From Deltaproteobacteria bacterium (GTDB taxonomy: Bacteria; Myxococcota; Myxococcia; SLRQ01), in NCBI GenBank assembly GCA_029210625.1, contig JARGFU010000034.1:1-44142 (forward strand): 44,142 nt of DNA. Direction: 5' to 3'. This document shows, one piece after another, positions 4,919 to 23,045 of the stretch (the stretch's first letter is position 1; every line of letters begins with the position of its first letter). Made by a program: the position numbers and the translations under genes. The notes under the pieces are model-generated. The model had not been told where the DNA came from and did no database searches. It saw only the letters and a program-made list of their open reading frames with translations.

Positions 4919-4926
4919 GGGTCGCT

Positions 4927-5438: not shown

Positions 5439-5458
5439 CCCAAGAGCGGGGGTCGCTC

Positions 5459-5488
5459 GCCCGGCGGGTGCCGTAAGGCCCGCCGGGC
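5459..5488 (+). terminator. 10-bp hairpin before the tail genes
   Basis: The arm 5459-5468 (GCCCGGCGGG) pairs perfectly with 5479-5488 around TGCCGTAAGG, within which CC and GG can extend the stem. It is the third such hairpin in a row after a capsid-region gene, and the last before the overlapping tail genes. Confidence 0.65.
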
Positions 5489-5511
5489 ACCTCCCCTGCA
5501 CGCCGCTCTAG

Positions 5512-6126: not shown

Positions 6127-8603
6127 TGCCAGGCGCGCGGCAGGCCAGCTTCGCGGGCGGCGAGATCAGCCCCCGGCTCTTCGGTCGGACCGACGTGGCG
6201 CGCTACGCCCACAGCCTGCGGCGCTGCGAGAACATGCTCGTCACCCCCACCGGGGCGGCGCTGAACAGGCCGGGCTTCGAGTACCTCGGCGACTGCAAGA
6301 ACAACTCGGCGGCCCGGCTGATCCCCTTCTTCTACTCGGACGGCTCGGCCTACGTGCTCGAGCTGGGCAGCGGGTACCTGCGCATCTGGAAGGACGGTGT
6401 CCAGGTCGAGAACCCCCCTGGCACTCCCGTCGAGGTGGCGACGCCGTGGCTCGCGGGTGATCTGCCCTACCTGATGTGGTGCCAGATCAACGACGTGATG
6501 TACCTCTGCGATGGGGCGGCGGCCTCGCCGAGCTCGCCCTACAAACTCACCCGCACGAGCGACACGGCCTGGACGCTGGTGGTGCTGAACCCACCGATGT
6601 CGGGGCCGGCGGCGCCGGCCGTTGCGCCGGTGCACTCGACCACCCCCGCCTCTCCGGTCAACCAGACCGTCTCCGACGTCAATCAGGAGCGGGACTATCG
6701 GTGGGTCTACACGAACATCGACCCCAACGGGAAAGAGAGCACGTCGAACGCCGCGCCGCTGATCTCCAGCGTGCGCATCGAGGGCGACGGCTACGTCATC
6801 CTCCTGTGTACTCGCGACTCCTCGCTGATCAACAAGGTGGCGCTCTACCGGGCCGAGGCGGGTGGACCCTACGGGTTCATCACCGAGGAGAGCGTCACGA
6901 GCACCGGCGTCGGCAGCACCAAGGCGGTGAAGGACTTCGGCTCGCCACCGGACTACACGAGGCAGCCCCCCACCGCGCGAGATCCCATCTACCAGGAGTA
7001 CCACCGCGCGGTAGCGCTCTTTCAGCAGCGCCTGGTCTTCGGGGGCGCCCCGGAGAACACCGGCAGCGACTTCTACAACAGCCCCCAGACGCTGCATCTC
7101 TCGACCGTCGGCGACATCGAGACCTTCGACACCTTCTTTCCCGTCGAGCCGGACCACCCGATGGAGCTCACCATCGGCTCGACGCGCCGGGAGGTCATCC
7201 AGGCGCTCGTCCCCCTGGGCCGCCACCTGCTGATCCTCACCGACGCCGGAGCGTGGACCCTGGACGGCGCCGGCGGCGCGCTCGCCCCAGCCTCGTTCGA
7301 TCTGCAGCCCCAGGACTACGCGGGGGCGGCCCCGGTGATGCCGGTGGTGGTCGGCAACAACGTCCTCTACGTGCAGGCCAGAGGGAGCGGGATCCGCGAC
7401 ATCAAGTACGACTACCAGGTCGGCGGCTACCGCGGTGCCGACGTGACCACCCTGGCGCACCATCTCTTCGATGGCCACTCGATCGTGCAGCTCACCTACC
7501 AGGAGAAGCCGCACCACGTGCTCTGGGCCCTGCGCGATGACGGCGCGCTGCTCGGCTTCACCTACCTGCCCGAACAGGAGGTCTGGGCCTGGCACCGCCA
7601 CGCCGCCTCGGGCTGGCAGTACGATGTGAGCGGCACCTTGGAGACGCAGAGCAGCGGCGTCTTGGCCGACGGGGCGATCCGCGCGATCTGCGTCGTGCCG
7701 GAGGGAACCGAGGATGCCCTGTACGTGATCACCCGCCGCAAGAGCGGCGAGGGCCACTACCTCGAGCGGATGGCGAGCAGGCGGGTGCCGAACATCCGGC
7801 AGGGGATCTTCCTTGACAGCGCCCTGCGCTTCGATGGTCGGGCGACCCCCGACGACGGGACGATGACAATCCAGAACTACGAGGGCCTCACGGCTGGCGA
7901 TCGCGGTGAGGTCCTGGCGGGCGTATCCAGCTTCGTCGCCGGCGACGTGGGCGACTGGATCGTCTTCGAGCCGGACAGCACCTCGAGGGTCTGCCGCCTC
8001 GAAATCACGGGCTACATCAGCGCGTTTTTAATAGAGGTCCGTCTGCTCGACGACTGCCAGGACGCGACCCCCGGCTACGACTGGGCGTGGGGACGAGCCT
8101 CTTTCTCGGGCCTCGATCACCTGGAAGGCGAGACGGTCAACGTCTTGGCCGACGGCGCCGTGGCCACCGAACTGCCAGTCAAAAGCGGCGCGGTGGGTCT
8201 CGCCACGCCTGCAGTCGATGTCGTGATCGGCCTCGCCTACGTCTCGCAGATCGAGCTGCTGGACCTACCGCCGGCGCAGTTCCGGGACCGGGCCGAGCCC
8301 AAGGCACTCTCCGGGGTGACCGTGGAGGTCGAGGACACCCGGGCCTTCTCGGCGGTCACGCGAGAGGGCGAGGTCGAGGGTGGTGGTTACTTCGAGCAGG
8401 CCGAGAGCGATGTCGGCAGCGTCGTGAAGCGTGAGGCCGCTGCCGAGACGGTGGGCTACATGTCGCTGCCCCGAGAGGTGACCGGGGCGATGCGGGTGGA
8501 GCTCGACCGGACCTGGAACGTCACCGCGCGGCCAGCGATCCTGCAAACCGAGCCGATTCCGCTGGCGGTGCTGGCGGTGACGAGGGAGTTCGCCGGTGGG
8601 TGA
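6126..8603 (+). CDS. Tail nozzle, tail tubular protein B (T7 gp12-like)
   Basis: 825 residues, close to T7 gp12 in length. The opening (QASFAGGEISPRLFGRTDVA, then LRRCENMLVTPTGAALNRPG) is the hallmark of podovirus nozzle proteins, in which ASFAGGEISPRL and the N-R-P-G motif are conserved. The rest is beta-rich, as expected for the hexameric tube closing the tail. It is translationally coupled to the adaptor gene by TGATG. Its stop is one base from the stop of the opposite-strand lipoprotein gene, which interrupts the operon here. Confidence 0.9.
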   Translation: MPGARQASFAGGEISPRLFGRTDVARYAHSLRRCENMLVTPTGAALNRPGFEYLGDCKNNSAARLIPFFYSDGSAYVLELGSGYLRIWKDGVQVENPPGTPVEVATPWLAGDLPYLMWCQINDVMYLCDGAAASPSSPYKLTRTSDTAWTLVVLNPPMSGPAAPAVAPVHSTTPASPVNQTVSDVNQERDYRWVYTNIDPNGKESTSNAAPLISSVRIEGDGYVILLCTRDSSLINKVALYRAEAGGPYGFITEESVTSTGVGSTKAVKDFGSPPDYTRQPPTARDPIYQEYHRAVALFQQRLVFGGAPENTGSDFYNSPQTLHLSTVGDIETFDTFFPVEPDHPMELTIGSTRREVIQALVPLGRHLLILTDAGAWTLDGAGGALAPASFDLQPQDYAGAAPVMPVVVGNNVLYVQARGSGIRDIKYDYQVGGYRGADVTTLAHHLFDGHSIVQLTYQEKPHHVLWALRDDGALLGFTYLPEQEVWAWHRHAASGWQYDVSGTLETQSSGVLADGAIRAICVVPEGTEDALYVITRRKSGEGHYLERMASRRVPNIRQGIFLDSALRFDGRATPDDGTMTIQNYEGLTAGDRGEVLAGVSSFVAGDVGDWIVFEPDSTSRVCRLEITGYISAFLIEVRLLDDCQDATPGYDWAWGRASFSGLDHLEGETVNVLADGAVATELPVKSGAVGLATPAVDVVIGLAYVSQIELLDLPPAQFRDRAEPKALSGVTVEVEDTRAFSAVTREGEVEGGGYFEQAESDVGSVVKREAAAETVGYMSLPREVTGAMRVELDRTWNVTARPAILQTEPIPLAVLAVTREFAGG

Positions 8604-8604
8604 T

Positions 8605-9006
8605 CTACGGTCGGTACAGCTCGAGGTTGCCGACGGGATAGTCGGTCGTGATCATCACGGTCTCGACCCCAAAAACGCCGTCGAGCAACTGTGGAGCAGT
8701 GAGGGGCCACTCGCAATGGCCCTGGATCACTCCCAGCGACCCATCCCATCCTGCAGCCGAAGCGAGGCACGACCCCTCGTAAGTGGTTTGATCGCCGCGG
8801 ACCGTGTTGCGGCAGTCGAGCACCGCTGGGCCGACGAGCAAGTCGTTGTCTCCCTCGAGCGTGATCAACCCACTGCACCTTCGACCATCCGAGAAGCCGC
8901 CGACCACGCTCCACTCACCGGAGAGGTCGGGCTCCTTCGCGCCTCCAGGTGCGCCGCAAGCGGTGGACAGAACAAGCAACCCAAGAACCAAGAGAGTAGT
9001 TTTCAT
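8605..9006 (-). CDS. Opposite-strand prophage lipoprotein (candidate moron gene)
   Basis: 133 residues from the ATG at 9006; the frame runs further upstream, but the Met at 9006 gives a clean signal peptide. Residues 1-16 (MKTTLLVLGLLVLSTA) are a basic, hydrophobic type II signal ending in a lipobox with Cys17, so the mature protein should be lipid-anchored outside the cytoplasm. The mature part contains DLSGEW near residue 27 and four more cysteines that could form two disulfides. The base composition is visibly less GC-rich than the flanking tail genes. It is the only minus-strand gene in the late operon and lies between virion genes. Such position and orientation fit a lysogenic-conversion gene, for example surface exclusion of other phages. 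The exact role is unknown. Confidence 0.75.
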   Translation of the reverse strand: MKTTLLVLGLLVLSTACGAPGGAKEPDLSGEWSVVGGFSDGRRCSGLITLEGDNDLLVGPAVLDCRNTVRGDQTTYEGSCLASAAGWDGSLGVIQGHCEWPLTAPQLLDGVFGVETVMITTDYPVGNLELYRP

Positions 9007-9055
9007 GCGCCGTAGACCTGCCACATCGGATCGTCTGACGCCAGAGGCTGGGCGG

Positions 9056-9559
9056 GTGCGCCTCGCGCAGGTCAGATCGCACGACATGGTGGAGCTCGCG
9101 GACCACATGCGGGAGGCCGACGTGCAGGAGGTCCGCGCCTCCGGCGGCTACCAGCAGCCCATCGACGCGGTCTTCTTGTCGGTGGAGATCTCGGCCCAGG
9201 CCAGAACCGCCTTCATCGACGACCGGGTGGCGGCGATCTGCGGCGTGGTGCTGGTCCGCGATGGAAGTTTGATCGAACGCTACTTCAACAGGCGTTGCAG
9301 CTACCCCGGCGTCGCCTGGGCGCTGACCTCGCAGGTAGTGGATCTGCACCCGCTGCTCTTCGCGGCGGCTTCCCGGCGGCTCCTCGAGGAGGCGGATTGG
9401 CTGGCGCCCTACGACCTGGTGTGCAACTTCGTCTCGGCCGAGAACACCCCCAGCCTGCGCTGGCTACGGTGGCTCGGCTTCGAGGTCCTCGAGCCCATCC
9501 CCTTCGGGCCGCGGGATCTTCCCTTCCACCCGGTGGTGAAGGAGCGAACCGATGTGTGA
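9056..9559 (+). CDS. T7 gp13-like (internal virion protein A) phage protein
   Basis: 167 residues from the GTG at 9056, where the family-like N-terminus begins (RLAQVRSHDMVELADHMREA, then DVQEV). An ATG at 9005 in the same frame would add 17 residues but overlaps the divergent lipoprotein start. The central region (AAICGVVLVRDGSLIER; then WLAPYDLVCNFVSAENTPSL; WLRWLGFEVLE) resembles gp13-like proteins with a GNAT-type fold found between nozzle and ejection-protein genes. T7 gp13 is needed for correct assembly of internal proteins. No acetyltransferase activity should be assumed. The end overlaps the next gene by eight bases. Confidence 0.6.
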   Translation: MRLAQVRSHDMVELADHMREADVQEVRASGGYQQPIDAVFLSVEISAQARTAFIDDRVAAICGVVLVRDGSLIERYFNRRCSYPGVAWALTSQVVDLHPLLFAAASRRLLEEADWLAPYDLVCNFVSAENTPSLRWLRWLGFEVLEPIPFGPRDLPFHPVVKERTDV

Positions 9560-10040
9560 GCCGGTCTCCGCGAGCATCGCGTCTCTTGGCCTCATGGCCG
9601 CAGGGACTGCGGTCGGTGCAGTAAGCAAGCACCAGCAGGGTAAGATGCAGCAGACGATCCTCATGCGAAACGCCGAGCTCGTCGATATGGAGGCCGACGA
9701 CATCCGCCACCTCGGCGGGCTCGAGGCCCAGCGGATCCGCCTCGTCGGCCGGGAGCTCGAGGGCCGGCAGGTCGCAACCTTCGCCGCCGGAAACGTGGAC
9801 CTCTCGGGGGGGACGCCTGCGGCCGTGGTCGCCCAGACGGCGGCCTACACCGAGCTCGACGCCGCGATCGCCCGGGTGAACGCCTCGAGGGCGGCCTGGG
9901 CGAAGGAGCGCGAGGGCGAAAACCTGCGATTCCAGGGCCTGATGGCACGCAAGGCCGGCGATACTGCCGCGTTCGCCACGCTGCTCTCGGGGGGCGCCCA
10001 GGCCGCCGGCGCCGCCTACGGCTACTACGGGAAGCGTTGA
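9552..10040 (+). CDS. Internal virion protein B (T7 gp14-like)
   Basis: 162 residues. It starts MCEPVSASIASLGLMAAGTA with a short hydrophobic segment, then a long helical region (residues 30-150) and NVDLSGGTPAAVV near residue 80, then an Ala/Gly-rich end. This pattern (MC-x-P start, alanine-rich amphipathic segment, long helix, short S-G motif) is typical of gp14-like ejection proteins, which leave the capsid first and form a pore in the outer membrane. It overlaps the previous gene by eight bases and precedes the gp15-like gene by three. Confidence 0.75.
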   Translation: MCEPVSASIASLGLMAAGTAVGAVSKHQQGKMQQTILMRNAELVDMEADDIRHLGGLEAQRIRLVGRELEGRQVATFAAGNVDLSGGTPAAVVAQTAAYTELDAAIARVNASRAAWAKEREGENLRFQGLMARKAGDTAAFATLLSGGAQAAGAAYGYYGKR

Positions 10041-10043
10041 CCC

Positions 10044-12059
10044 ATGCCTGTCGTCCCCCTCGCCCAGCCGACCGGTAGGATCGCCCCGCTGCGGGCGCCT
10101 CGTCAGTCGCCGAACGTCCCCGACGCCACGGCCGAGCTCGGAGCGGCCATCGGCCAGGTCGGCCGGGTGCTCGGGCAGATCGCCCAGCAGGAGCAACAGC
10201 GCGCGGATCGGGTGAAGGTGCAGGACGCAGAGAGCCAGTGGCTCGACCTGGTCAACCGGCGGCTACACCAGGACGAGGACGGCTACCTCTCGGCCCAGGG
10301 GATGGACGCCGGCGACCGCAAGGACTCGGTCCTCGAGGAGCTCGGCGAGGCCCGAAAGCAGCTCTCCACCGGCCTCGACCAGCGCCAGCGAGAGGCGTTT
10401 CTGGCCTCGACGGACAGCCCCTGGCGCTCGACCCAGAGCCAGATCTGGCGCCACGCCGACCGGGAGCGCGAGCGGGTCTACCTCACGAGCTTCGAGGCCC
10501 GCGTCGAGAAGGGCCTCGATCGCATCGCGGGGTCCTGGGACGACCCAAAGGTACGGGACGACGAGCTCGTCGGCCTCTCGGCCGCCGCCATCGAGGAGGG
10601 GGATCGGCGGGGACAGGACCCCCAGGCCTTCGCCAACGAGCAGCTGGTCAAAGCCGACCAGGTCATCCTCGAGGCGATGCTCGGCGCAGAGGATTATCAA
10701 GGGGCCGAGGTCTATCTCGAGCGCCCCCAGGTGCGCGAGCGGGCCGGCCGAGAGGCCGAGCGCTACCGCAGGGTGATCCGGGCGGGCAAGCGGGAAGCCC
10801 AGGTCTCGAGGGCCGCCGACGAGCTCGTCTCGAAGACCATCGACCCTGGCACCGGCCGGGTCGACATCGAGCGTGCCTTCGCTGCCGTGGACAAGCGCTT
10901 CAAGCCGGGGAAGCTGCAGGACGCGGTGCGCGACGCGGTCATGGGCCGCGCTCGGCTCGCCCACTCCGACTGGCAGGGGCGCTCCCAGAAGGCCTACGCG
11001 ACGGCCTACCAGGCCTTCGAGCTCGGTGGGCGCCGGTGGGCGGCGATCCCGGTGCGAGCTCGCCGGCAGCTGCTCGAGGTCGACCCCGACGGCTACGAGC
11101 GCCTGCGGCGTCTGGGTCTCGCCGAGCAGCGAGCGCGGCAGAGAGGGGGCAGGGGGGTATCGGCTCGGGGTTTGAGCTCGGCCGACCAGCTCTTCAAGCT
11201 GCGCTACGACATGGCCAGCAACCCCGCGAAGTACCGAACCATGGACGGGGCCACCTTCGACGACCTGGCGCGCCGGCTGGATCTCTCGCCCAGGGACACA
11301 AAGACGGCGCAGGTGAAGTTCCTGTCGCTGACCGAGGCCGGGACGCGGGAGCAGGAGCGTCGGGTGAATCACGACCCGATCCTGCTGGCCGAGGCGCGCC
11401 GAGCCGGCGTGGTCAAGGGAGCCCGGCCCGGTCCGGAGGAGAGGCGGCTGCTCGATGTGGGCGAGGATCGCCTCGAGGAGTTCCAGCGGTCGTTCCGGGA
11501 CGAGAAGGGCCGCTGGCCTTCGGCGGCCGAGGTGCGCACCGAGGTCGACCGGCTGCTCACCAAGGGCGAGATCGTGGACGGGGGCTGGCTCGGGATCTTC
11601 GACAAGGGCAGCACGTTGCTCGGGGCGATCACCGAGGGCCAGGAGGGGGCGTTCACCGAGCTGCCGGCCTCGAGGGACATAAACGACCCAGTTTCGGAGC
11701 TCTCACCCCGTTCGGTCGAGCTCGAGGGTGGCGGCGCCACCGGTGAGGAGGCTGAGAAGCTGCTCGAGGGCGTGCTTCCCGAGCAGCCGCTGCCGCTGGC
11801 CATCGAGCGGAGCATGGCGCGTGCGGTTCACGGGGACAACCCGGAGGTACCGGTGGTGGGGGGATTTGAGACCCCACCCGAGGAGAGGGCCGCGCTGCTC
11901 GACTACCTGCGGCCCCTCGAAGAGGAGGCCAAGGAGGAGCGCACGGGGATCCCGATTTGGTTCCGGAGGGGAGCCGAAGCGGAGCTGCGTCGCCGCGGGT
12001 GGCCGGTGGGTGATGAGGCGGTGGAGCGCGCCTGGGACCGCTGGGGAGGAGGTCGCTGA
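10044..12059 (+). CDS. Internal virion protein (T7 gp15-like)
   Basis: 671 residues, close to T7 gp15. Almost wholly helical and charged: residues 28-60 (ATAELGAAIGQVGRVLGQIA and a following Gln/Arg stretch) look coiled-coil, then repeated motifs such as FEARVEKGLDRIAGSWDDP and VYLERPQVRERAGREAERYR. No membrane segment or enzymatic motif was found. By position between gp14-like and gp16-like genes it should be an ejection protein that forms the periplasmic tunnel during infection. It ends in a TGATG overlap with the giant gene. Confidence 0.75.
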   Translation: MPVVPLAQPTGRIAPLRAPRQSPNVPDATAELGAAIGQVGRVLGQIAQQEQQRADRVKVQDAESQWLDLVNRRLHQDEDGYLSAQGMDAGDRKDSVLEELGEARKQLSTGLDQRQREAFLASTDSPWRSTQSQIWRHADRERERVYLTSFEARVEKGLDRIAGSWDDPKVRDDELVGLSAAAIEEGDRRGQDPQAFANEQLVKADQVILEAMLGAEDYQGAEVYLERPQVRERAGREAERYRRVIRAGKREAQVSRAADELVSKTIDPGTGRVDIERAFAAVDKRFKPGKLQDAVRDAVMGRARLAHSDWQGRSQKAYATAYQAFELGGRRWAAIPVRARRQLLEVDPDGYERLRRLGLAEQRARQRGGRGVSARGLSSADQLFKLRYDMASNPAKYRTMDGATFDDLARRLDLSPRDTKTAQVKFLSLTEAGTREQERRVNHDPILLAEARRAGVVKGARPGPEERRLLDVGEDRLEEFQRSFRDEKGRWPSAAEVRTEVDRLLTKGEIVDGGWLGIFDKGSTLLGAITEGQEGAFTELPASRDINDPVSELSPRSVELEGGGATGEEAEKLLEGVLPEQPLPLAIERSMARAVHGDNPEVPVVGGFETPPEERAALLDYLRPLEEEAKEERTGIPIWFRRGAEAELRRRGWPVGDEAVERAWDRWGGGR

Positions 12060-15000
12060 TGCCTCACGTTCCCCGCCACCCCGACCTGGAACAGGGTCTC
12101 GACGAGCCGGTTCCCACCGCCCAGCCCGACTTCGGCGCCCTCTTCGACTTCGACGCGGAACCGCCACCGGCGGCGCCAACGGTCGCAGCCGAGCTGCCGG
12201 CGGTTGAGCCCCCGGGCGACGCTGGCGGCCCCGACTTCGGGGCACTCTTCGACGAGCTCCAGGCCGGGGACGCCACGGACCTCAAGGCGAAGAAGCGGCT
12301 GCTCGACTGGCGGATCGCCCACCCCTCGATGGACCCGGACAAGGCCGGCGAGGTGTTGCGCCTGACGGCGTCGCTCACCGCCTCGGGCGCGAAGATCGAC
12401 CCGTCCTTCGTGGCGGACAACATCGACCGCATCAAGGCCAGGGCCTTCGAGCAGCCCCTCGACACCGAGCAGCTCGCCAGGGAGCACCCGGCCCTCGCCG
12501 CCTTCCTAGCCTCACCGGAAGGCGCCGCCGGCGCCGACGACGTCGGCAGCCTCCAGCGGCTCTCCGAGACGGCCAGGGATCTGGACCTCGTCTCGTCCGA
12601 GAGCCTGGTCGACGACCTGCACCGGACGGTGTCGGGGATCCTGCGGATCGACTCTGAATGGATACCGTCCGAGCAGGCCGAGGGGGTCGACTGGCTGCTG
12701 CGGGCGCCGCGTGACGTGCTGGGCGACAAGGCCCGAGAGCAGGAGATGATCTACGCGGGCTTCCGGGCGATGCGGGGCTGGGGATCACCTGCGGAAGAGG
12801 AGTACGCGAAGGCGCTCTTCCGTCGGCTGCAGCGCACCCACGGCGCCGACGGTTGGCTAGAGAAGGCCTGGGCCGGGATCTCCGACTGGGGCAGCGAGAT
12901 CGCCGTGGACCTCGGGGTGCGGGCGGTTGGTGGTGTCGTTGGGGGCAAGGTCGGGGCTGGCATCGGAGCCCTCGGCGGCTCGGCTGCCGCTCCTGGCCCA
13001 GGGACGGTTGCCGGCGGTGGCGGGGGTGCGGTGGTCGGTGCCGCGGTGGGGCAGTTCACCAGCGACTTCGCCTGGTCCTACTACCAGACCGCCGGATCGC
13101 TCTACACGCAGGTCCTCGTCGAGGCCGAGGCCAAGGGCCTGGAGGTCGACCGCCAGAAGGTCGTGGACGCGGTTGACAAGGGGTCGATGGCGATCGCCGG
13201 GATGTTCTCGCTCTCCTTCGGCAAGGTCCTCGGCCGGGTGCCTGGGGTGCGCGAGGTCTACGGAAAGGTGATGAAGCGCGCGGTGAAGGACGCGCTCGAA
13301 GCAGGCACGGTGCGGCGGGCCGGTGGCCGCACCCTGACCCGCCTTGCCACCAACTACGCCCTGGTCGGCGGGATTATGGGCACCCAGGCCGCCGGTCAGC
13401 GAGCGACCTCCGAGTTTGCCCTCGAGGAGGGGTCGCCCGGCTACAAGGCAGACTACTCGACAGTCGACGATGCTTTCGTTGCAGGCGCCGTCGACGCGAT
13501 GATCGGGTTCGGGTTCCTGGGCCTCGCCGGTCCCACCGTGGACCTGCGGACCGACCTGCGCCGCCTGGGAGACGTGCAGGCGCGAGCGGAGCGGATCGAG
13601 GCGGCCGTCGCGGCGGTGAAGGACTCGAAGCTGGCCGATCGGGCGCCCGAGGCGGTGCAGGAGCTCTACCGCAGCTTCCAGGGTGAGAAGCCCGAGCTCG
13701 ACGAGGTCTACTTCTCGACCGAGGACTTCGACGCCCACTGGAAGGGCCAGGGCCTCGAGCCCCGCGTGGCGGCCGCTGAGCTGCTCGGCGACGGCGGCAA
13801 GGCCTACGACGAAGCGAGGGCCACCGGGAGCGACCTGGGCGTGCCGGTGGAGATCTATCTCACGCGGATCGCCCGTGGAGAGAAGGCCTCGCCGCTGGCG
13901 GAGCTCGCCCGCCTCGAGGACGGCGGCCGCTCGATCGTCGAGGAGCGGCAGTGGCGCTCCGAGATGCCCGAGCGGATCCGGGCGCTGGCCGCCATCGACG
14001 TCGACAAGATGGAGGAGGGTCGCCGGGCCCTCTACGAGAAGTGGAAGGCGCAAGCCGTGGGGGCCGGCGTCCGGGAGGACGTCGCCGATGCAAACGCACG
14101 GCTCGTGAGCGCGGTTTTCGACCAGTTCGCAGCCCGTTTGAACGAGGATGCAACGCGGCGTGGAGATACCGCGGAGCGCACGGCGGAGCAGATCTTCGAC
14201 GAGCTCGCTGACGTGGCGATCCTCGGCCCAGGGCAGGAGCGTCCGGCCTCGGCCGAGGCGGTCGCGGCGCAGGCGGGGATCCTCGAGCAGCCCGCCCTCG
14301 CGGAGACGGCGGTGGTTGAGGACCAGGCCGGCGTGACCGTGGGACTTCGACCCGGCGCCTTCAAGGATGACCCCACGGCTGCTCCCTTCCTTCCTCGCCC
14401 CGGCGTCGAGCCGGACCTCACAGCGATCCAACGCACCGCGGTACAGGTGTTCGAGTCGCAGCCCTTCCTTGATCTGGTGCGAGACATCACCGGTGCCGAG
14501 ACCACGACGGCGCACCCGATCCACGGGTCGTGGCAGTTCGTTCCGGAGAGGTCGATCGCGCTGCGAGGGCTCACCGAGGAGCAGGCCAAGCTGCTTTCTC
14601 CGTGGCTCGGCGTCGCGTTCGCGCAAGAGGCTATGGTGTTGGACCGGCCCACCCGCGGTCAGCGCGCAGGTCGGGCCGGGTTTCTCGTGGGGTGGGAAGA
14701 CCGCCATCTCACAGAGGCCGACATCGCCAGGATTGGAAAGGCCTTCAAGGCCGCAAACCTCGACTTTTCGACCACGGTCGACGGGGCGGCTTTCAAGCTG
14801 GTACACTTCGGAGAACCAGACGGCCTGGCCGACTTCTCTGACCGGATAGCAGCTGTCGCGGCGGCAGAGGGCATGCGGTTCTGGTCCTATCGGTCGAAAA
14901 GCGAGCTACAAGGTGCAGAGACTTACTCCCTACGATCTCGACACGGCGATGAAGATGCTCAAGGAGCGGCACGGGATAGAGGAGGTCCCGCCGGACCATC

Positions 15001-18000
15001 CGATTTATTCGGAAGGCTCGTCGCTCACGTTCTTGTCCCCTACGCCCGAGCGGCAGGAGACGCCGGCTACGACTTCGACGCCGGACGATTCGCCCGACGC
15101 TTCGGGCTCGACGACGCCCAGCGAGCGCTGATCGAAGAGCGGCTCCGCGCAGCGGAGCCCTCGCGCCTCGAGCAGAGTGCGGCGCCGGACATCGACACGG
15201 TGTTCCCCGACCTGGGGGCCGGTGTCCTGCGGTTCGAGCAGCCAGCCTTCCACGGCACCGCCGCGACCGAGGTCGCTCGAATCGACCTGGGCAAGGTCGG
15301 GTCTGGCACCGGCCTCGCCGCCGAGGGTTGGGGGTTCTACGCCACCGAGCTCGAGGCCATCGCCGAGCTCTACCGCGAGGCGGCTGAGGAGCGCGCCGGC
15401 GTCGATGGCGACGGCCAGGTGCTGCGTCTCGACATCCCCGAGGACACCGATCTGCTCGACTCTCGCGCTGCCGTGTCCGCCCAGCGCCCCGAGCACATCA
15501 CGGCGCTGCGAAAGGCCGGCCTCGTCGAGACCCGAGACGGCGATCTGTGGGTCACCGCCGGCATTCTCGAGCAGCCCGCGTCGGAGACGACGGCCAAGGA
15601 GCTCTACAGAGCGATCGCCGACCAGTGGCTTATGGGCGTGGGCGCCTTGCGTGGCATTGAGGCCTCGCGGCCTGACGAGGCGGCCTCTCGATTCCTCTCC
15701 TCCATCGGCATCCTCGGGATCCACTACCCGGCCGAGCTCGCTCCCGGCGGCGTGCCCGGCCGAAACTTCGTCGTCTGGGACGAGGCGGGGATCTCGATCC
15801 TCGACCGGCTGCACCAGGAAGAGACCACCGTCGGCGACTCGCGCGGCTACATCGAGTTCGCGGCCAAGGAGGGGGCCGCGCCCCGGAAGTTCAACATCCG
15901 GATCCTGGAGACGGCCGACGAGAGCACCCTGGCGCACGAGACCGCTCACTTCCTCATCGAGGTGATGGGCGACATCGTCTCCCTCGACGAGTCTCCCGAC
16001 GCGATCCGCTCGGACTACGCGACCCTCCTGCAGTGGATGGGCTACGAGTCGTCCGAGGCGCGCCGGCCGGCGCTGCAGGAGCGCCGTCAGCTCTCCGGCC
16101 GTCGTGACCTGTCTGCCGACGAGGTCTCGCGCCTGGGGGAACTCGATGCCCGCGAGGAGCGGCTGTCGCGTGGGTTCGAGGGATACCTCGCCGAGGGTCG
16201 TGCGCCGTCGCCCGAGCTCGCCGGCGTCTTCGCCCGGTTCCGGGGATGGATGCTGCGGATCTACCGCGGCCTCGTCGGCATCGAACGGCAGTATCGGGAG
16301 CAGTTCGGGCAGGACCTCGGCCTCAACGACACGGTGCGCGGGGTCTTCGATCGCCTGCTCGCCTCGAGCGTCGAGGTGGAGGCAGCGCGCCGGGCGGCCG
16401 ACCAGGGGATCTTCGCGCCGGCCTTCGAGCGGATGACACCGGAGCAGCAGGGGCTCTACACGCGGCTTGACCAGGACGCGCGAGACGAGGCGCAGGCCGA
16501 GCTCTTGCGGCGCATCACCGAGAGCCAGCGTCGCGAGAACAAGGCCTGGCTGCGCGCCGAGAAGCGGCGGATCCGGGAGGAGATCGAGGCAAAGCTCGAT
16601 GACGAGCCCGCCTACCGCGCCATCAAGGCGCTTCAGGCCGGCGAGGTTCCCGGCCGGGAGGGGAGCGTCAAGCTCGACCGAAAGGCCGTGGAGGCCGCGA
16701 TCGGAGTCGAGGGTCGGCGAGCCCTTCCCCGCGGCGTCACCGCGCCCCGGGGCGGTGTGCACCCCGACGCCGTCGCCGCCCTGTTGGGCTTCGACGACGG
16801 TGACGCGCTGATCGCTGCTATGAGGGAGGCCGAGCCCAGGCGGGAGCGGGTCGACCGTGAGACCACGGCCGAGCTCGAAGCCACCTACGGCAAGGAGCTG
16901 CTCGAGGACCCCGAGGCCCTGGCCGAGGCCGCGCTGGCGTCGGTCCACAGCGACAAGGCGGCGCTCAAGGTGCTGCTCGAGATGCGGTCGCTGGTGGGCG
17001 ACCTAAAAGGTGAGGCCCGCCGATCCTCGGCCGCCGACCTGGGCGTCCTCCAAGACAACGTGCGGCGCATGCTTTCCGACAAGCAGCTGCGGCAGATCTC
17101 GCCGGGACGCTATCTGCGCAGCGAGCGGGCGGCGGCCGCCCGGGCGCTCGAGGCCGCACTCGAGGGCGACCTCCACCGGGCCTACGCGGAGAAGGAGGCC
17201 CAGCTTCTCAACATGCTGCTCTACCGCGGCGCCAAGGAGATCCGGGAGATGTCCGGAGTCGCCGAGCGTCGGCTCAAGCGCATGCGCAAGCAGTCGCGCC
17301 GCGCTCGCCTCGGGCGAGCCGCCCCCCTCTACCGGGACGCCGTCGACGGGCTGCTGGCGGCCGTGGGGCTCGGCCCGGCGCCGGCGACACCCGTGTCGAT
17401 GGAGGCGCTGCTTTCCCAGCTCGAGCGAGACGCTGTCGGCGTCGAGCGGGTGGAAGACCCGGTGACGGGTGAAAGCCGCCTCGAAGCGCAGTTCGACGCC
17501 GATCTCATCGCCGGGGTGCTGCGGGCTCCGAAGCGATGGTCGCATCTCACCCCGAGGGAGGCGCAGGCGATCTCCGAGGCCGTCGCCGTCGTCGATGCCG
17601 TCGCCAAGGTCACCACCGAGGTGGAGGTCGACGGCCGCCGGATCGCGCGAGCGCAGTGGCTCGGAGAAGCGGCCGCCACAGCCGCGAGGAACCTCCCCAA
17701 GGCAAAGCCTCTCGAACTCTCGCGGGCCCGGGAGGAGGCGAGTGTGCTGCAGCGGGCTCGCCGCTTCCTCGAGAACGCCGACGGTCTGCTCCTCGAGATG
17801 GAGACCATGATCACCATGCTGGATGGTGGGGATCTCGACGGGCCCTTCCGAAAGGCGATCCTGGAGCCCTACCGGAAGGCCCGCTTCAAGGAGGGCGAGC
17901 TCGCAGCCCAGTACCTCGAGCAGTTGGTGGCGCAGTGGGAGCAGATGCCGGCGGAACTGGCACGTCGCGCGGGTGAGTCGGTCGACCTCACGACCGCGCT

Positions 18001-19867
18001 GCCGGTGCCCAAGGCTCTGTCGGCCCGCGCCAACCGCCACATCCGGCCGAGGTCCGACCTCTGGGTCATCGCCCTGAACCTCGGCAATGCAGGCAACCGG
18101 CAGCGGCTTCTCGATGGCTACGGCTGGACCGAGGCCCAGGTGATGGCGGTGCTCGACGAGCACCTCACCCGCGAGGAGTGGGAGTGGGTGCAGGCCGTCT
18201 GGGACTCCCTCGAGTCGCTCTACCCCGAGGTCGCGCGGGTGCACGAAGAGGACACCGGCTTGCCCCTGGGCAAGGTCGAGGCGACCGAGGTGGAGACCCG
18301 GCACGGCACCTTCCGGGGCGGCTACTTCCCCGCGGTCTACGACTCCCGGCTCTCCGGCCTCGGCACCAAGCAAGAGGAGAGCCCCGCCACGGTGGCTGGC
18401 GTGCTCGGCGGGTCGTTCACGAGGCCGGCCACGGCCAAGAGTCACACCAAGGGCCGGGCCGCGCAGGTAAAGGACTACCTCCTGCTGGACTGGAGCGTGC
18501 TGCCCTCGCATGTCGGCCAGGTCGTGCACGACATTGCGTTCCGGGCTTACCTCAAGCAGACGGCCAGTCTTTTCCTCGACGGCCGCTTCCAGGCCATCCT
18601 CGCCGAGCGCCTGGGAGACCAGCGCGCCAAGCAGTGGATCCCCTGGCTGCAGGCTGTCGCCGCCGGCACTGCGAGCGCGGTGCCATCCAACCAGAAGGAG
18701 GTCTACCGGACCATCCGCGGCATGCGGAATCGCTCGGCCATCGCCATCATCGGCTGGTCTCTGCCGGTAGCGCTTGGCGATTTTACCAACCCGCTGATGG
18801 CGGCCGCCGGCGGCCTGGTCTCGCTGCGGCACCTGACGCCGGCGCTGGCTCGGGCGGCCAACCCCTTCGGCTTCTTGAAGATGCGGCAGTTCGTGCTCGA
18901 GCACAGCGAAGAGGTGGCCCATCGAGCCCGACAGGACGAAACCTCTTTGGTGCACCAGCTCGAGGTGATCGGCGGCAAGGAGGTACAACTAGGTCCGGCC
19001 AAGCAATTCATCCGTGGGATCCAGGAGAGCGCCTTCGCTTTGATGCGCTGGACCGATGCCCTGACGACCACACCGACCTGGTGGGCGGCCTACCAGCAGG
19101 CAATGCAAGAGCGTCGGGTCGCTGTGATCGAGGGCAAGCTCGACGAGGCTACCGCGCACCGGGAGGCGGCCGAGGCCGCCGACTTCGTCATCGGGCGGTT
19201 GTTCCCGTCGCACGAACCAGGTGAGCGCAGCGCAATCCTCAACGATCGGGGCTTCCTCGGCTCGCTGCTGATGTTCCACAGCTACATGAACAAGATGTAC
19301 AACCTGCAGCGCCTCACCGCGCACGACGCAGTCACCGCGTGGCAGGACCCGGGCACGACGAGCTATGGGAAGCTCGGTGCGACGGCGAAGGCCACCGGCC
19401 TGTTGCTGGCGCAGTGGGTTGTTTTCGGTGCCGCCGGCGAGCTCCTCTCCGGCCGAGGTCCAGAGCAAGGAGAAGAGGACTGGGAGTGGGCGCTGCGCAA
19501 GGTGTTGTCTGCCCCCTTCTCGACGATGCCGTTCGTCGGCCAGGGCGTCGAACAGGCGATCGGTGCGGCGCTGACCGGCTCTCGGCCGAGGCCCTCGATC
19601 CGGGCGGCACCTGGCCTGGCGGTCATCGATACGGTCATCCGCAACTGGGATCGGATGAAGAGGGAAGACGATCCGGAGAAGGCGCTCTTCGACCTGTTCG
19701 AGATCGTGGGCGTTGTGATGGGGCTCCCCACCAACCAGGTGCGGCGCACCGGCCGGTTCCTCGCGAGCGGTGAGGCTGACCCGAGTAGACCTGGAGAGTT
19801 CGCGAGCGGTGTCATCTATGGGCAGCGCCCGCGACAACCCGAGAACATCTTCACATTGGAGGACTGA
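12059..19867 (+). CDS. Giant polyvalent ejection protein (gp16-like) with ART-like and zincin domains
   Basis: 2,602 residues, about twice T7 gp16. Order seen: acidic/Pro N-terminus with two DFGALFD motifs; glycine-rich membrane-active stretch (about 287-345); helical region; an ART-like domain (about 1062-1240: FHGT, GWGFYAT, later NFVVWDEAGISIL) like the ADP-ribosyltransferase domains of phage polyvalent proteins; a zincin motif H1293-E-T-A-H1297, with RGFEGYLAEGRAP near 1371 supplying a likely third ligand; coiled coil (about 1484-1515); a long C-terminus with hydrophobic segments (about 2443-2465). No transglycosylase motif was recognised. It likely enters the host with the DNA and may modify and cleave host proteins. 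About 47 codons from 14898 read better in another frame (separate entry). TGATG couples it to the gene behind. Confidence 0.8.
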   Translation: MPHVPRHPDLEQGLDEPVPTAQPDFGALFDFDAEPPPAAPTVAAELPAVEPPGDAGGPDFGALFDELQAGDATDLKAKKRLLDWRIAHPSMDPDKAGEVLRLTASLTASGAKIDPSFVADNIDRIKARAFEQPLDTEQLAREHPALAAFLASPEGAAGADDVGSLQRLSETARDLDLVSSESLVDDLHRTVSGILRIDSEWIPSEQAEGVDWLLRAPRDVLGDKAREQEMIYAGFRAMRGWGSPAEEEYAKALFRRLQRTHGADGWLEKAWAGISDWGSEIAVDLGVRAVGGVVGGKVGAGIGALGGSAAAPGPGTVAGGGGGAVVGAAVGQFTSDFAWSYYQTAGSLYTQVLVEAEAKGLEVDRQKVVDAVDKGSMAIAGMFSLSFGKVLGRVPGVREVYGKVMKRAVKDALEAGTVRRAGGRTLTRLATNYALVGGIMGTQAAGQRATSEFALEEGSPGYKADYSTVDDAFVAGAVDAMIGFGFLGLAGPTVDLRTDLRRLGDVQARAERIEAAVAAVKDSKLADRAPEAVQELYRSFQGEKPELDEVYFSTEDFDAHWKGQGLEPRVAAAELLGDGGKAYDEARATGSDLGVPVEIYLTRIARGEKASPLAELARLEDGGRSIVEERQWRSEMPERIRALAAIDVDKMEEGRRALYEKWKAQAVGAGVREDVADANARLVSAVFDQFAARLNEDATRRGDTAERTAEQIFDELADVAILGPGQERPASAEAVAAQAGILEQPALAETAVVEDQAGVTVGLRPGAFKDDPTAAPFLPRPGVEPDLTAIQRTAVQVFESQPFLDLVRDITGAETTTAHPIHGSWQFVPERSIALRGLTEEQAKLLSPWLGVAFAQEAMVLDRPTRGQRAGRAGFLVGWEDRHLTEADIARIGKAFKAANLDFSTTVDGAAFKLVHFGEPDGLADFSDRIAAVAAAEGMRFWSYRSKSELQGAETYSLRSRHGDEDAQGAARDRGGPAGPSDLFGRLVAHVLVPYARAAGDAGYDFDAGRFARRFGLDDAQRALIEERLRAAEPSRLEQSAAPDIDTVFPDLGAGVLRFEQPAFHGTAATEVARIDLGKVGSGTGLAAEGWGFYATELEAIAELYREAAEERAGVDGDGQVLRLDIPEDTDLLDSRAAVSAQRPEHITALRKAGLVETRDGDLWVTAGILEQPASETTAKELYRAIADQWLMGVGALRGIEASRPDEAASRFLSSIGILGIHYPAELAPGGVPGRNFVVWDEAGISILDRLHQEETTVGDSRGYIEFAAKEGAAPRKFNIRILETADESTLAHETAHFLIEVMGDIVSLDESPDAIRSDYATLLQWMGYESSEARRPALQERRQLSGRRDLSADEVSRLGELDAREERLSRGFEGYLAEGRAPSPELAGVFARFRGWMLRIYRGLVGIERQYREQFGQDLGLNDTVRGVFDRLLASSVEVEAARRAADQGIFAPAFERMTPEQQGLYTRLDQDARDEAQAELLRRITESQRRENKAWLRAEKRRIREEIEAKLDDEPAYRAIKALQAGEVPGREGSVKLDRKAVEAAIGVEGRRALPRGVTAPRGGVHPDAVAALLGFDDGDALIAAMREAEPRRERVDRETTAELEATYGKELLEDPEALAEAALASVHSDKAALKVLLEMRSLVGDLKGEARRSSAADLGVLQDNVRRMLSDKQLRQISPGRYLRSERAAAARALEAALEGDLHRAYAEKEAQLLNMLLYRGAKEIREMSGVAERRLKRMRKQSRRARLGRAAPLYRDAVDGLLAAVGLGPAPATPVSMEALLSQLERDAVGVERVEDPVTGESRLEAQFDADLIAGVLRAPKRWSHLTPREAQAISEAVAVVDAVAKVTTEVEVDGRRIARAQWLGEAAATAARNLPKAKPLELSRAREEASVLQRARRFLENADGLLLEMETMITMLDGGDLDGPFRKAILEPYRKARFKEGELAAQYLEQLVAQWEQMPAELARRAGESVDLTTALPVPKALSARANRHIRPRSDLWVIALNLGNAGNRQRLLDGYGWTEAQVMAVLDEHLTREEWEWVQAVWDSLESLYPEVARVHEEDTGLPLGKVEATEVETRHGTFRGGYFPAVYDSRLSGLGTKQEESPATVAGVLGGSFTRPATAKSHTKGRAAQVKDYLLLDWSVLPSHVGQVVHDIAFRAYLKQTASLFLDGRFQAILAERLGDQRAKQWIPWLQAVAAGTASAVPSNQKEVYRTIRGMRNRSAIAIIGWSLPVALGDFTNPLMAAAGGLVSLRHLTPALARAANPFGFLKMRQFVLEHSEEVAHRARQDETSLVHQLEVIGGKEVQLGPAKQFIRGIQESAFALMRWTDALTTTPTWWAAYQQAMQERRVAVIEGKLDEATAHREAAEAADFVIGRLFPSHEPGERSAILNDRGFLGSLLMFHSYMNKMYNLQRLTAHDAVTAWQDPGTTSYGKLGATAKATGLLLAQWVVFGAAGELLSGRGPEQGEEDWEWALRKVLSAPFSTMPFVGQGVEQAIGAALTGSRPRPSIRAAPGLAVIDTVIRNWDRMKREDDPEKALFDLFEIVGVVMGLPTNQVRRTGRFLASGEADPSRPGEFASGVIYGQRPRQPENIFTLED
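14898..15040 (+). other. Alternate-frame coding stretch in the giant gene
   Basis: From about 14898 the main frame gives compositionally odd peptide (YSLRSRHGDEDAQGAARDRG) with codons rare for this region. The frame one base later gives a protein-like sequence (SYKVQRLTPYDLDTAMKMLK, then ERHGIEEVPPDHP) with typical codons. Near 15040 the main frame again looks normal (YDFDAGRFARRFGLDD). The switch points coincide with an A-run (14897-14900) and a C-run (15037-15040). This could be two compensating indels, real or from sequencing, or a nested reading frame (GTG 14913 to 15131). Confidence 0.5.
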
Positions 19868-20322
19868 TGAAACCGTTGAGAAACCTTCTTTCCATGGCCA
19901 TCCTTCTGTCGGTGCTGGTGCCCGCTGCGGCTGTCGCATCGACCAGCTATTCCGGCGGCAAGCTGCACGGCACCGCGGTGCAGATCTCCTGCACGACGGG
20001 GTCGGAGACCGGCACCCCTCCGACGACCGACCCCGAGACCACCTCGCAGGGGCTGGCGCTCTACGGCATGAGTGGGTTCACCGTATACGCCGAGGCCGCG
20101 AGTGCCTTCACCGCAGGGGGCTTCTTGGCTGCCTACCTCTGGCTCGCGCCTTCCAGCAAGTGGGTCCGCGCGCCCGACCTCGACCTCTATGTCGATTCGG
20201 CTCTGGCGGAACAGGGGTGGGCTGGGTTCCAGGTGGTCTCCTCCACAGGAGGCATCGTGTACTTGCCCTCGGGCGTCGGGGTGGCGGTGGACATCCACAT
20301 CATCGCCACCAAGGCGAGGTGA
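19867..20322 (+). CDS. Small Sec-exported phage protein, function unknown
   Basis: 151 residues. Residues 1-24 are a Sec signal peptide (basic start, hydrophobic core, AVA-S cleavage site). The mature part is small-residue-rich and probably all-beta, with SSTGGIVYLPSGVGVAVDIH near the C-terminus. The ATG overlaps the giant ejection gene's stop (TGATG), so it is translated from the virion transcript. An export signal is unusual for a late structural gene. The last 27 codons are repeated right after the stop in the same frame, so readthrough of TGA would append a second copy of the C-terminal motif. No family was recognised. Confidence 0.7.
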   Translation: MKPLRNLLSMAILLSVLVPAAAVASTSYSGGKLHGTAVQISCTTGSETGTPPTTDPETTSQGLALYGMSGFTVYAEAASAFTAGGFLAAYLWLAPSSKWVRAPDLDLYVDSALAEQGWAGFQVVSSTGGIVYLPSGVGVAVDIHIIATKAR

Positions 20323-20486
20323 AAATGCGCCGGCTGCTCGCCCTCCTCGCCCTCCTCGCCCTCCTCCACAGGAGGCATCGTCTACCTGCCCTCGGGCGTC
20401 GGGGTCGCGGTGGACATCCACATCCTCGCCACCAAGAAGTGATCATGCGCTACCTTGTTTTCCTCGCCCTCCTCCCCGGCATGGCC
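20241..20486 (+). repeat. 123-bp imperfect tandem duplication
   Basis: Copy 1 (20241-20363) holds the 3' end of the small secreted gene, its stop, and an ATGCG start followed by a CTCGCCCTC-rich signal-peptide-like segment. Copy 2 (20364 to about 20486) repeats the same order and supplies the start and signal peptide of the 619-residue protein. Differences are mostly single bases, and copy 1 has three extra bases before its ATG. The remnant ORF from 20325 (MRRLLALLALLALL) is in frame with the downstream gene and has the better ribosome site (GAGGTGAAAATG). Confidence 0.85.
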
Positions 20487-22304
20487 CTCGCGCAGGGGGT
20501 GATCTACCAGCCGCAGGTGGACCGCTCCTCAAGGCTGGTCACGATGGCCGACCGCGGCGTCCCGCAGTACCGGATGACGACCTCGCCCCCGGGCGCGCTG
20601 CCGCCCTGCACCGAGGCCAACGGCTGTGTGATGCAGTGCGCTGTGACCGCCGCTGGCCATGGCTGCAGGGAGGGCGACGGCACCACGATCACCGTCGAGA
20701 ACCCCCTGAACAACGTGACGGCGGACTGCTTCGGCCAGCCCGACTCCTGCCTGCGTATGGAGCACAATGCGAACGACGACCCCTACCTGTCGGCCGGGAC
20801 TGCTGACGCGCTGGGGCTCCCGGCGGTGGTGACCGGACCCCACACCGTCGTCTCGGTCGCCTTCACCGATGACACCAACGGTGCCACCAACATTCGGGGG
20901 TTCAGCTACGGGGTGGCCAACACGACAGGCGTCGAGAACTTCCTTTCCGCAACATCTGGTGCGTGCGCCTACAACAACAGTCCGACGCGAGACCTGGCCG
21001 GAATCTCGGTGCCGCTCCAGGACGGCTGGAACGTGATGACGTGCCGGACATCCTCCAGCACCAGCCGACTCGCGCGAGTCAACGGGAGGCACGGCGCCGA
21101 GAATACCTCTGCCTGGACGGTCGACGATCCCACCGGTAACAGCTTTCAATTCGGGTCGTTGGGTACATCCCTATCCGTCCACGGCTACCTCCACTCCCTC
21201 ACCCTCTACTCTCGCGCCCTCTCGGACGCAGAGGTGGCGGCGATTGAACGCGGGTACTACGGCACCTCGGCCGCCACCGTCCGCGACTCCATCGCGGCCT
21301 GCGCGAAGGGGAGCGGGGCGAGCCGGACCTACGATCTCCTCGGCTACGATTGGCCGTGCACTGACCTGGTGAGGGGTATCGATGGGTACGGCACCATCCA
21401 GAACTACGCGACGGAGTCCTTCGACGTGCCGTCGCTCACCGTGGTGGGCACGCCCACCGTAGCCGCCCTTGCTGCCGGGCCCTTCGATCGCGCCCTGGTC
21501 GGCGCTGGCGCCTACACCGTCGGCGACGACGACGCTGGCGTGGCCGAGCTTTTCTATCTTTTCCCACCCAGCTCCGGGACGATCCCCAACGACGCTACGG
21601 TAACCGTCTCATTCCAGGCGCTCGCTGGCACCGCTACCCCCAAGACGCAGATCGGGTGCATAGGAGGCACCGGCACCAGCACGGTGGAGCACACTCTCAC
21701 CGGAGACTGGGCCACCTACACCGACACCACGACCTGCGCCGCGAACACCGACACCTACGTCCGGTACTACCCGGCGGGCACCGTGGCTTCGGCAACCGGC
21801 ACCAACTCGATCACGGCGATCCAGGTCGAGGTGGGGGGCGTGGTGCATCCCGTCTGCCCCAGCCTCGGCGCGGCGACGACCTGCGCCGCCAACGTCGAGG
21901 CCTTTCCTCCACCACATCAGATCCCACGGAAGATCGAGTTCGACCTCACTCACTACGACGTGGGCAGCTCCGAGACTCGCTACATCCTCGACTGCTTTGC
22001 CACGCAGGGGTTTGCCTTCCACCAGGGCGGGAGCGACTCTGTCACCTTCACCACCTCGCAGGCCGACGGGGACAACAGGATCAGCACGACCGGCCCCCGC
22101 TCTCCGACCGCAGGCGTGGCAGACCACTTCGCTGTCATGTGGGACCCCAGGTTCCAGCAGACGCTGTTCGCGAATCGCATCCTGGAAGACTCCGACGCTG
22201 CCTCGAAGGTGCCGTCATCCTACAACGACCCCTGCTACCTGATGACCAGCAACGGCGGCGCGCTGCTCAACTGGGCTTCGGTCAACAACCTGGTGATCTG
22301 GTGA
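20445..22304 (+). CDS. Sec-exported LamG / carbohydrate-binding-like phage protein
   Basis: 619 residues from the ATG at 20445. Residues 1-16 (MRYLVFLALLPGMALA) are a Sec signal peptide. A LamG / concanavalin-like jelly-roll spans about 110-275, ending YLHSLTLYSRALSDAEVAAI. Residues 340-470 resemble a carbohydrate-binding module (DATVTVSFQALAGT, GDWATYTDTTTC, ITAIQVEVGG). The C-terminus (about 490-619) resembles a second LamG unit (HFAVMWDPRFQQTLFANRIL; ends VNNLVIW). About twenty cysteines fit an oxidising compartment. By position it replaces the tail fibre, but a signal peptide suggests export. It could be a surface adhesin or decoy made by the lysogen, or a receptor-binding protein. An in-frame start at 20325 is possible. 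The stop overlaps the next start (GTGA). Confidence 0.7.
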   Translation: MRYLVFLALLPGMALAQGVIYQPQVDRSSRLVTMADRGVPQYRMTTSPPGALPPCTEANGCVMQCAVTAAGHGCREGDGTTITVENPLNNVTADCFGQPDSCLRMEHNANDDPYLSAGTADALGLPAVVTGPHTVVSVAFTDDTNGATNIRGFSYGVANTTGVENFLSATSGACAYNNSPTRDLAGISVPLQDGWNVMTCRTSSSTSRLARVNGRHGAENTSAWTVDDPTGNSFQFGSLGTSLSVHGYLHSLTLYSRALSDAEVAAIERGYYGTSAATVRDSIAACAKGSGASRTYDLLGYDWPCTDLVRGIDGYGTIQNYATESFDVPSLTVVGTPTVAALAAGPFDRALVGAGAYTVGDDDAGVAELFYLFPPSSGTIPNDATVTVSFQALAGTATPKTQIGCIGGTGTSTVEHTLTGDWATYTDTTTCAANTDTYVRYYPAGTVASATGTNSITAIQVEVGGVVHPVCPSLGAATTCAANVEAFPPPHQIPRKIEFDLTHYDVGSSETRYILDCFATQGFAFHQGGSDSVTFTTSQADGDNRISTTGPRSPTAGVADHFAVMWDPRFQQTLFANRILEDSDAASKVPSSYNDPCYLMTSNGGALLNWASVNNLVIW

Positions 22305-22882
22305 ACCCCCGCAAGAGGAACCTGGTGATCGCCGCGCTGATCGCAGCCGTCGCCTCGAGCGGCGGGTACTCCCTCTATCTCGGGGCAGTCGAGCGACGCT
22401 GCACCGTGGTCGAGATGTCCTTCGCCTGCGGTGTGCTGGAGACCTACGCCCCTGCGCTGGCCGCGGGCTGCGAGGGGCGCCGCCAGCTCGAGCTGGTCAT
22501 GACCGCGACGGCCGCAGAGGTGCTGGCCGACGTCGACCTGATCATCCCAGCGATGGAGGCGGCCACCGGCATCACCGAGGCCCAGGCTCGTGAGTTGCTC
22601 GGCGGGTCGAGGATCGTGCACATCAGCGATCGGGTCGGGTCCGATGCGCAGTGCCCCGACCGGCGAGTCACGATCCGCAAGCCCACGGGGACGGGGTGCC
22701 TCGCAGGCCTGGTCAGCCGCGACGGTGCGCCTGCTCGCTGGGTGCGCCAGTGCTGCGGGCCTCTGTGCGTGTGCGTGGGGGTTTGCTGTGCGACCGTTCC
22801 GCAGTTCGTGAATTTGGCCTCGGAGATGGACGTGATCTTCTGCTCGACCTGCGCGGCGGAGGCGCGCTGCCAGTCCCCTTGA
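22301..22882 (+). CDS. Membrane-anchored cysteine-rich protein, function unknown
   Basis: 193 residues from the GTG that overlaps the LamG gene's stop. MNPRKRNLVIAALIAAVASS followed by GGYSLYL is a positively charged start plus one hydrophobic segment, so either an anchor or uncleaved signal, with the rest outside the cytoplasm. The middle (residues 45-110) is helical. The C-terminus is cysteine-dense (residues about 148-190: QCCGPLCVCVGVCC, then FCSTCAAEARC). It could be a disulfide-stabilised partner of the LamG protein, or a holin/spanin-like protein of unusual type, but no lysis motif was found. It is the last phage gene before the boundary structures. Confidence 0.6.
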   Translation: MNPRKRNLVIAALIAAVASSGGYSLYLGAVERRCTVVEMSFACGVLETYAPALAAGCEGRRQLELVMTATAAEVLADVDLIIPAMEAATGITEAQARELLGGSRIVHISDRVGSDAQCPDRRVTIRKPTGTGCLAGLVSRDGAPARWVRQCCGPLCVCVGVCCATVPQFVNLASEMDVIFCSTCAAEARCQSP

Positions 22883-22896: not shown

Positions 22897-22973
22897 GGGC
22901 GTTGAACGCCCCTGTGAGGGCTCTTCCAGCCGCCTCCGCCAGGCGCCTCCGCGCAAAAGCTGCGCGGAGCCCT
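22897..22973 (+). terminator. Structured stretch closing the phage operon
   Basis: Fifteen bases after the last phage stop is GGGCG-TTGAA-CGCCC (22897-22911). Then AGGGCTC (22917-22923) can pair with GAGCCCT (22967-22973) around an inner hairpin CTCCGCGC/GCGCGGAG (22947-22969, loop AAAAGCT). No clear T-run follows. A likely transcript end, or part of the right attachment or end region. Confidence 0.55.
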
Positions 22974-22975: not shown

Positions 22976-23015
22976 TTAGTCTCAGAACAGGACAAAATTA
23001 GTCTCAGAACTGGAC
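22976..23015 (+). repeat. 18-bp direct repeat at the phage/chromosome junction
   Basis: TTAGTCTCAGAACAGGAC at 22976-22993 and the same with one change (A to T) at 22998-23015, separated by four A/T-rich bases. It is markedly AT-richer than its surroundings. It may be an insertion-sequence end or part of an attachment/recombinase site. No transposase gene is adjacent. Confidence 0.7.
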
Positions 23016-23045
23016 GTTCCCTACACCGACGCGCTTCACCCTCCG

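Follow-up and report, generated by a model that had tools for sequence, protein, structure and literature searches.

The 44,142-nucleotide stretch analysed here (hereafter the window) is the entire contig C34 (JARGFU010000034.1) of a 6.1-Mb myxobacterial genome. It carries part of a prophage whose structural genes end in a cassette of three genes, the trio, lying 3' of the gene for a giant ejection protein (Table 1). All three open reading frames (ORFs) are present as described in an earlier, sequence-only reading of this DNA, and so are the couplings that it had pointed out. The ATG of the 151-amino acid (aa) gene overlaps the stop codon of the giant ejection gene (CTGATGA, 19865-19869) and the start of the 193-aa gene overlaps the stop codon of the 619-aa gene (GTGA, 22301-22304). 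The proposal that these proteins are exported agrees with the predicted signals: a von Heijne-type scorer called Sec signals on the 151-aa and 619-aa proteins (SP@24 and SP@16, respectively), and the 193-aa protein combines a KR-flanked hydrophobic N-terminus with a cysteine-dense tail, 10 of its 14 cysteines being located in the last 61 residues, from C133. The LamG region of the 619-aa protein was recovered with an E-value of 8e-9 (PF13385), better than the curated cut-off. No family matched the 151-aa and 193-aa proteins in the Pfam and PHROG profile searches, and no homologues of the 619-aa or 151-aa proteins were found in GenBank phages and IMG/VR. A weak match of the 193-aa protein in G083 was discarded, the locus being dissimilar. 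The AlphaFold model of the 619-aa protein, made from the single sequence without alignment, had a predicted local distance difference test score of 36, too low for use.

Table 1. Features of the prophage region in the window (positions in the window, strand, and evidence for the assignment).
Feature	Position	Strand	Evidence
Giant gp16/Bbp10-like ejection protein, 2602 aa, no cysteine	12059..19867	+	tblastn to BPP-1 bbp10, AF, HU1, Carin1, others; cysteine count
Small exported-type protein, 151 aa, predicted Sec signal at about residues 1-24	19867..20322	+	signal scorer
Pseudogene remnant, tandem second copy of the 151-aa gene	20325..20444	+	sequence comparison
Large receptor-binding-type protein, 619 aa, predicted Sec signal at about residues 1-16, LamG, 16 cysteines	20445..22304	+	Pfam PF13385; G157 similarity
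193-aa protein, GTG start, predicted N-in signal-anchor (or cleavable signal), cysteine-dense C-terminal part, 14 cysteines	22301..22882	+	
Strong stem-loop, 9 bp, z -2.65, without T-run	22947..22969	+	3' of the last gene of the cassette
Structural module: portal, Bbp19-like, scaffold/protease, GP7-type capsid, tail tube A and B, gp13-, gp14- and gp15-like	530..12059	+	profile searches
Two copies of TTAGTCTCAGAACWGGAC, right end of the Mu-like prophage	22976..23016	+	inverted copies at C49 8686, 8802

The scorer is a home-made, approximate matrix that classed OmpA, MalE, PhoA, Lpp and LacZ correctly. It called only 10 of the 351 open ATG frames of the window (2.8%) signal-bearing, so that two or three consecutive calls in the cassette are beyond chance. 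Some short signals are missed by this approach, and the large proteins of the related prophages G157 and G070 (MIHLALALALAAAPYS and MLLALVLAQATALG) were judged by eye.

The position of the trio corresponds to the fibre slot of related phages. In about 20 non-myxobacterial loci, a signal-less gp17N-type fibre or tailspike is the product of the first sizeable gene 3' of the giant; these relatives come from Pseudomonas, Cobetia, Bordetella, Caulobacter, Sphingomonas, Stenotrophomonas, Agrobacterium, Mesorhizobium, Planctomycetota and others. The window prophage departs from this BPP-1-type layout in having the 151-aa signal protein directly 3' of the giant, and no other fibre candidate was found among its gene families on C34 and on contig C49, where we place its other end. 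A receptor-binding role of the cassette is thus at least as likely as that of a surface adhesin of the lysogen. Besides its location, the cassette has a carbohydrate-binding-type domain, the LamG of the 619-aa protein.

Among the Myxococcota loci with enough sequence, the trio was directly 3' of the giant in the window and in G157, and followed a gp17N fibre in this slot in G070; in G073 a gp17N fibre lies close to the end of the contig, and G043 has no fibre in the slot. The idea that the three proteins co-occur as a set stood in part: their order, size and type of signal recur in G157 (123, 646 and 211 aa) and G070 (113, 636 and 184 aa), with starts close or overlapping, whereas homology was detectable for the large protein alone. 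For this protein, local similarity between the window and G157 reached a z-score of 5.0 (0 of 200 shuffles) and was weak between the window and G070; the values were 15.7 between G157 and G070 and 27.8 between G157 and the Manatee Spring phage ctUh1700. The large proteins of G157 and ctUh1700 match the PHROG tail family 5939. The proposed conservation of the set rests on architecture and one distant homology. The tail protein of ctUh1700 had no match in the 195 Myxococcota genomes. In this phage (L033), ORFs with a signal or lipobox follow one another at 11170-17111, 3' of the large tail gene; among them are a lipoprotein-like HExxH protein and tail-fibre-like sequences, and the first small gene is unannotated.

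Export signals are also predicted on the fibre proteins of Mx8, Mx9 and other myxophages, which does not support the premise of the sequence-only reading that virion proteins normally lack them. In the fibre of Mx8 (p64) and Mx9 (p14), the first 28 residues form a predicted Sec signal and are immediately followed by the fibre N-domain (TRNSVGTYTLPGGNPVVSGTTISSTWANSTLQDIA); the homologues in Stenotrophomonas BUCT555 and Bradyrhizobium ppBjS10J-1 have their starting methionine at this domain. In the 195 Myxococcota genomes, the N-domain copies of G126, G121, G035, G026 and G033 all have an export-type extension, more anchor-like in G026, and the G080 copy is frame-shifted. Among the best 80 of the IMG/VR matches listed, 77 contigs start at a methionine directly at the N-domain, and a signal was present only in Mx8 itself and in L097, a contig with Mx8-type ejection genes. 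Fisher's exact test gave P ~2e-11, or ~5e-7 after a rough collapse of near-duplicates, from counts that ignore phylogeny. The signal sequences differ between lineages and the N-domain behind them is conserved, as expected if this domain must still bind the particle.

Several neighbours of these fibres bear predicted signals as well: a small protein (the N-terminal part of Mx9 p15, and its counterparts in G121 and at 37.85-38.17 kb of Mx8), a GDSL esterase part, and others. The Mx8 gene (~37850-38169 in L069, NC_003085), located between p64 and p66, is unannotated and interrupted in the record by a frameshift of one base; its homologues are the N-terminal portion of Mx9 p15, there fused to the GDSL esterase part, and the G121 gene. 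The annotated p65, on the opposite strand, is probably not a gene. Mx8 p54, considered as an alternative fibre, carries Peptidase_S74 and lies among ejection genes, and was read as an internal protein. Outside Myxococcota, AF_025 (L010 13263-14285) and AH02_17 (L173 5950-7098) of the Pseudomonas phages AF and AH02 are fibre-like, have a clean Sec signal and are encoded where the late operon ends. The predicted export signal on fibre-type proteins is concentrated in Myxococcota phages and not restricted to them, and in some phages it is found on an additional protein.

Cysteine makes up 2.27% of exported-type proteins, about nine times its share in the cytoplasmic virion proteins that these phages encode (0.25%); in 68 fibres that lack a signal it amounts to 0.36%. 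Within the small-protein family, the members of Mx9, G121 and G157, which bear a signal, have a cysteine pair (AIWC and WWC; IDC and IWC in G157), whereas the signal-less member of L097 has V and A at these positions. The latter (2657-2929), devoid of cysteine and encoded just upstream of the signal-bearing fibre on this Mx8-like contig, provides a natural comparison for export-linked cysteines.

We tentatively favour the view that the trio fills the tail-fibre (receptor-binding) position in a Mu-like podovirus prophage, with exported receptor-binding products that would dock at lysis. This reading is preferred because the N-domain is conserved behind the signal, no other fibre candidate is available, the cassette is coupled to the late operon, and exported-type proteins are enriched in cysteine. 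The 151-aa and 619-aa proteins would be exported late in lytic growth and reach the periplasm, where the LamG protein could fold with disulfides formed among its cysteines, probably helped or held by the membrane-anchored 193-aa protein. At lysis, the exported protein would meet finished particles and dock as their receptor-binding part. Docking of the tailspike is the established last step in P22. With more reserve still, we put forward a broader proposal: short-tailed myxobacterial phages would pass receptor-binding and fibre proteins through Sec, let these fold in the periplasm with formation of disulfides, and finish their virions only when the cell lyses or later. The literature searched describes no such route of assembly.

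Several observations weigh against docking of exported fibres. Neither PHROG nor Pfam revealed a virion-attachment domain at the N-terminus of the 619-aa protein, the window 151-aa and 193-aa proteins have no detectable homology with their trio counterparts, and profile comparison among the large proteins gave no match. Signals were absent from the fibre-region proteins of Mx4, which has a contractile tail, from the Mu-type fibre of G130 and from the gp17N fibres of G070 and G073. In G070 such a signal-less fibre stands beside the trio, and AF and AH02 carry signal-less tailspikes beside their exported-type fibre-like protein; both situations fit an extra exported protein. Cysteine is not significantly enriched in fibres that have only the N-domain (0.70%, P 0.05). 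Finally, receptors of the producing cell itself could trap fibres once these are exported.

The main rival explanation is an exported surface module outside the virion that acts on the producing cell by receptor masking or superinfection exclusion. Exported fibre-type proteins would then occupy receptors or glycans, spare progeny from binding to debris and block other phages. We consider this explanation somewhat less likely than docking. The signals predicted on the cassette proteins, the coexistence of signal-less fibres in G070, AF and AH02, and the lipoprotein-like counterpart in ctUh1700 (LLLGAMGC) speak for it, and lambda Lom is an earlier case of an exported protein whose gene lies among tail genes (PMC12309495). 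Against it, the cassette is coupled to the late operon and not to a lysogen promoter. The internal promoter suggested by the sequence-only reading could not be sustained: the start of the first gene overlaps the stop of the late ejection gene, and the scan of the cassette, with a model that does not cover myxobacterial promoters, detected no sigma-70-like site. Also against masking are the conserved fibre N-domain behind the signal of Mx8-type proteins and the lack of another fibre candidate for the window virion, and the window cassette proteins have neither a lipobox nor an outer-membrane barrel.

It is less probable still that the hydrophobic N-termini are not used for export and stay on fibres assembled in the cytoplasm, for instance as attachment or membrane-touching tips. 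Export is predicted by an approximate scorer, and the N-termini of the G026 fibre and of the 193-aa protein look more anchor-like than cleavable. Against this reading stand the n-h-c architecture with AXA sites in many unrelated sequences, the cysteine enrichment, and the loss of the cysteine pair in a signal-less homologue. A surface or secreted adhesin, or a polysaccharide-binding moron aiding the lysogen and unrelated to infection, is the least probable alternative, as the LamG on an exported-type protein and the location at the right end of a Mu-like prophage, a usual moron site, are opposed by the start/stop coupling to the ejection gene, the lack of an internal sigma-70-like promoter and the homology of the slot to a fibre slot. 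Reading the 193-aa protein as a holin or spanin was not favoured, given the amidase endolysin on C49 and the absence of a lipobox partner and of a coiled coil.

The element that carries the cassette follows the order of a BPP-1/T7-like podovirus (Head-tail connector portal, GP7 capsid, tail tubes, gp14-like and giant ejection protein). Contig C49 has the large terminase at its end, as well as MuA, MuB, Gam, GemA, Mu gp27, a Mor-type activator and an amidase endolysin (Mu-type matches: PF02914 2e-59, PF09077 5e-25, PF07352 6e-38, PF06252 1e-23, phrog_836 3e-35). Paired inverted repeats (GTCTCAGAAC) are found at both ends (C34 22979/23001 and C49 8686/8802). From the MuA, MuB, Gam, GemA and Mor-type genes and these repeats, the element is best described as a Mu-like transposable prophage of ~38.6 kb with the cassette last before its right end, the adjacency of C49 and C34, which have no sequence overlap, being inferred. 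The stem-loop 3' of the cassette is the probable end of the late operon. The flanks, named by reading translations without family search, are ribD on C49 and the ribE/ribBA region on C34. This prophage (window 1-23020 and C49 8680-24285) pairs Mu-type transposition genes with a BPP-1/T7-like short-tailed virion module, and transposable podoviruses seem little described. Just beyond the right end, at 23046-23651, lies an M23 peptidase with an N-terminal membrane segment; considered as a phage endolysin, it was assigned to the host, since it lies beyond the end repeats and relatives of the host commonly carry its family.

The remnant that follows the 151-aa gene has its own ATG and signal-like leader (MRRLLALLALLALL), then, in another frame, a copy of the 3' end of this gene (20362-20444, 83 bp, 86% amino-acid identity). 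The differences are mostly synonymous, which suggests that both copies were once selected as proteins. They fall at synonymous third positions and not at adenines, and no reverse transcriptase ORF was found 3' of the giant; a diversity-generating retroelement (DGR) of the Mtd type was thus rejected.

Virions of tailed phages are thought to be completed in the cytoplasm. If true, a systematic export signal on fibre-type proteins that are also enriched in cysteine would mean either that virions are finished outside the cytoplasm or that receptor-binding proteins serve in addition as exported receptor masks, and some tail-fibre-type proteins may leave the cytoplasm instead of attaching to particles inside. 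As the laboratory phages Mx8 and Mx9 show the pattern, the question is directly testable in Myxococcus xanthus. Full-text literature searches, from which subscription papers were mostly absent and which are thus weak evidence of novelty, returned no description of signal peptides on tail fibres, those of myxophages included, or of structural proteins that phages export. The announcements of the Mx9 and Mx4/Mx1 genomes, like a review of myxophages, say nothing of such signals. Within the same limits, the view of the sequence-only reading that no system with this layout had been described still holds.

Several known systems can be compared with the cassette. T5 Llp, phi80 Cor and lambda Lom are phage-encoded exported envelope proteins and functional analogues for the masking reading; they differ in being small lipoproteins or a beta-barrel, with neither LamG nor a trio in the fibre slot. 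BPP-1 (bbp9, mtd) and AF (AF_019) have fibre genes 3' of the giant ejection protein, but these fibres are signal-less with a gp17-type N-domain, and BPP-1 has a DGR whereas the window has none. AF (AF_025) and AH02 (gp17) end their late operon with a fibre-like protein with a clean Sec signal, although as a single gene adjoining a signal-less tailspike and with a sequence unlike those of the window. In ctUh1700, a small signal protein and then a large binding-module protein follow a large tail gene, the large protein being lipoprotein-like and the third gene encoding a lipoprotein-like HExxH protein.

G157 and G070, the latter a metagenome-assembled genome of Archangium sp., share with the window a BPP-1-type giant followed by small signal, large signal and N-anchored cysteine-rich proteins of near-identical sizes with overlaps. 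Sequence similarity is low in both; G157 has an additional 402-aa signal-bearing fibre-like protein, and G070 its gp17N fibre ahead of the trio. Mx8 and Mx9 are P22-like, with a fibre N-domain and no LamG in p64 and a GDSL/SGNH esterase part in Mx9 p15, and their fibre-region proteins have no sequence homology with those of the window. They nevertheless resemble it in that the fibre region of a short-tailed myxophage encodes signal-bearing fibre-type proteins (p64 and p14), followed by small signal-bearing ones (Mx9 p15, Mx8 p66 and p67).

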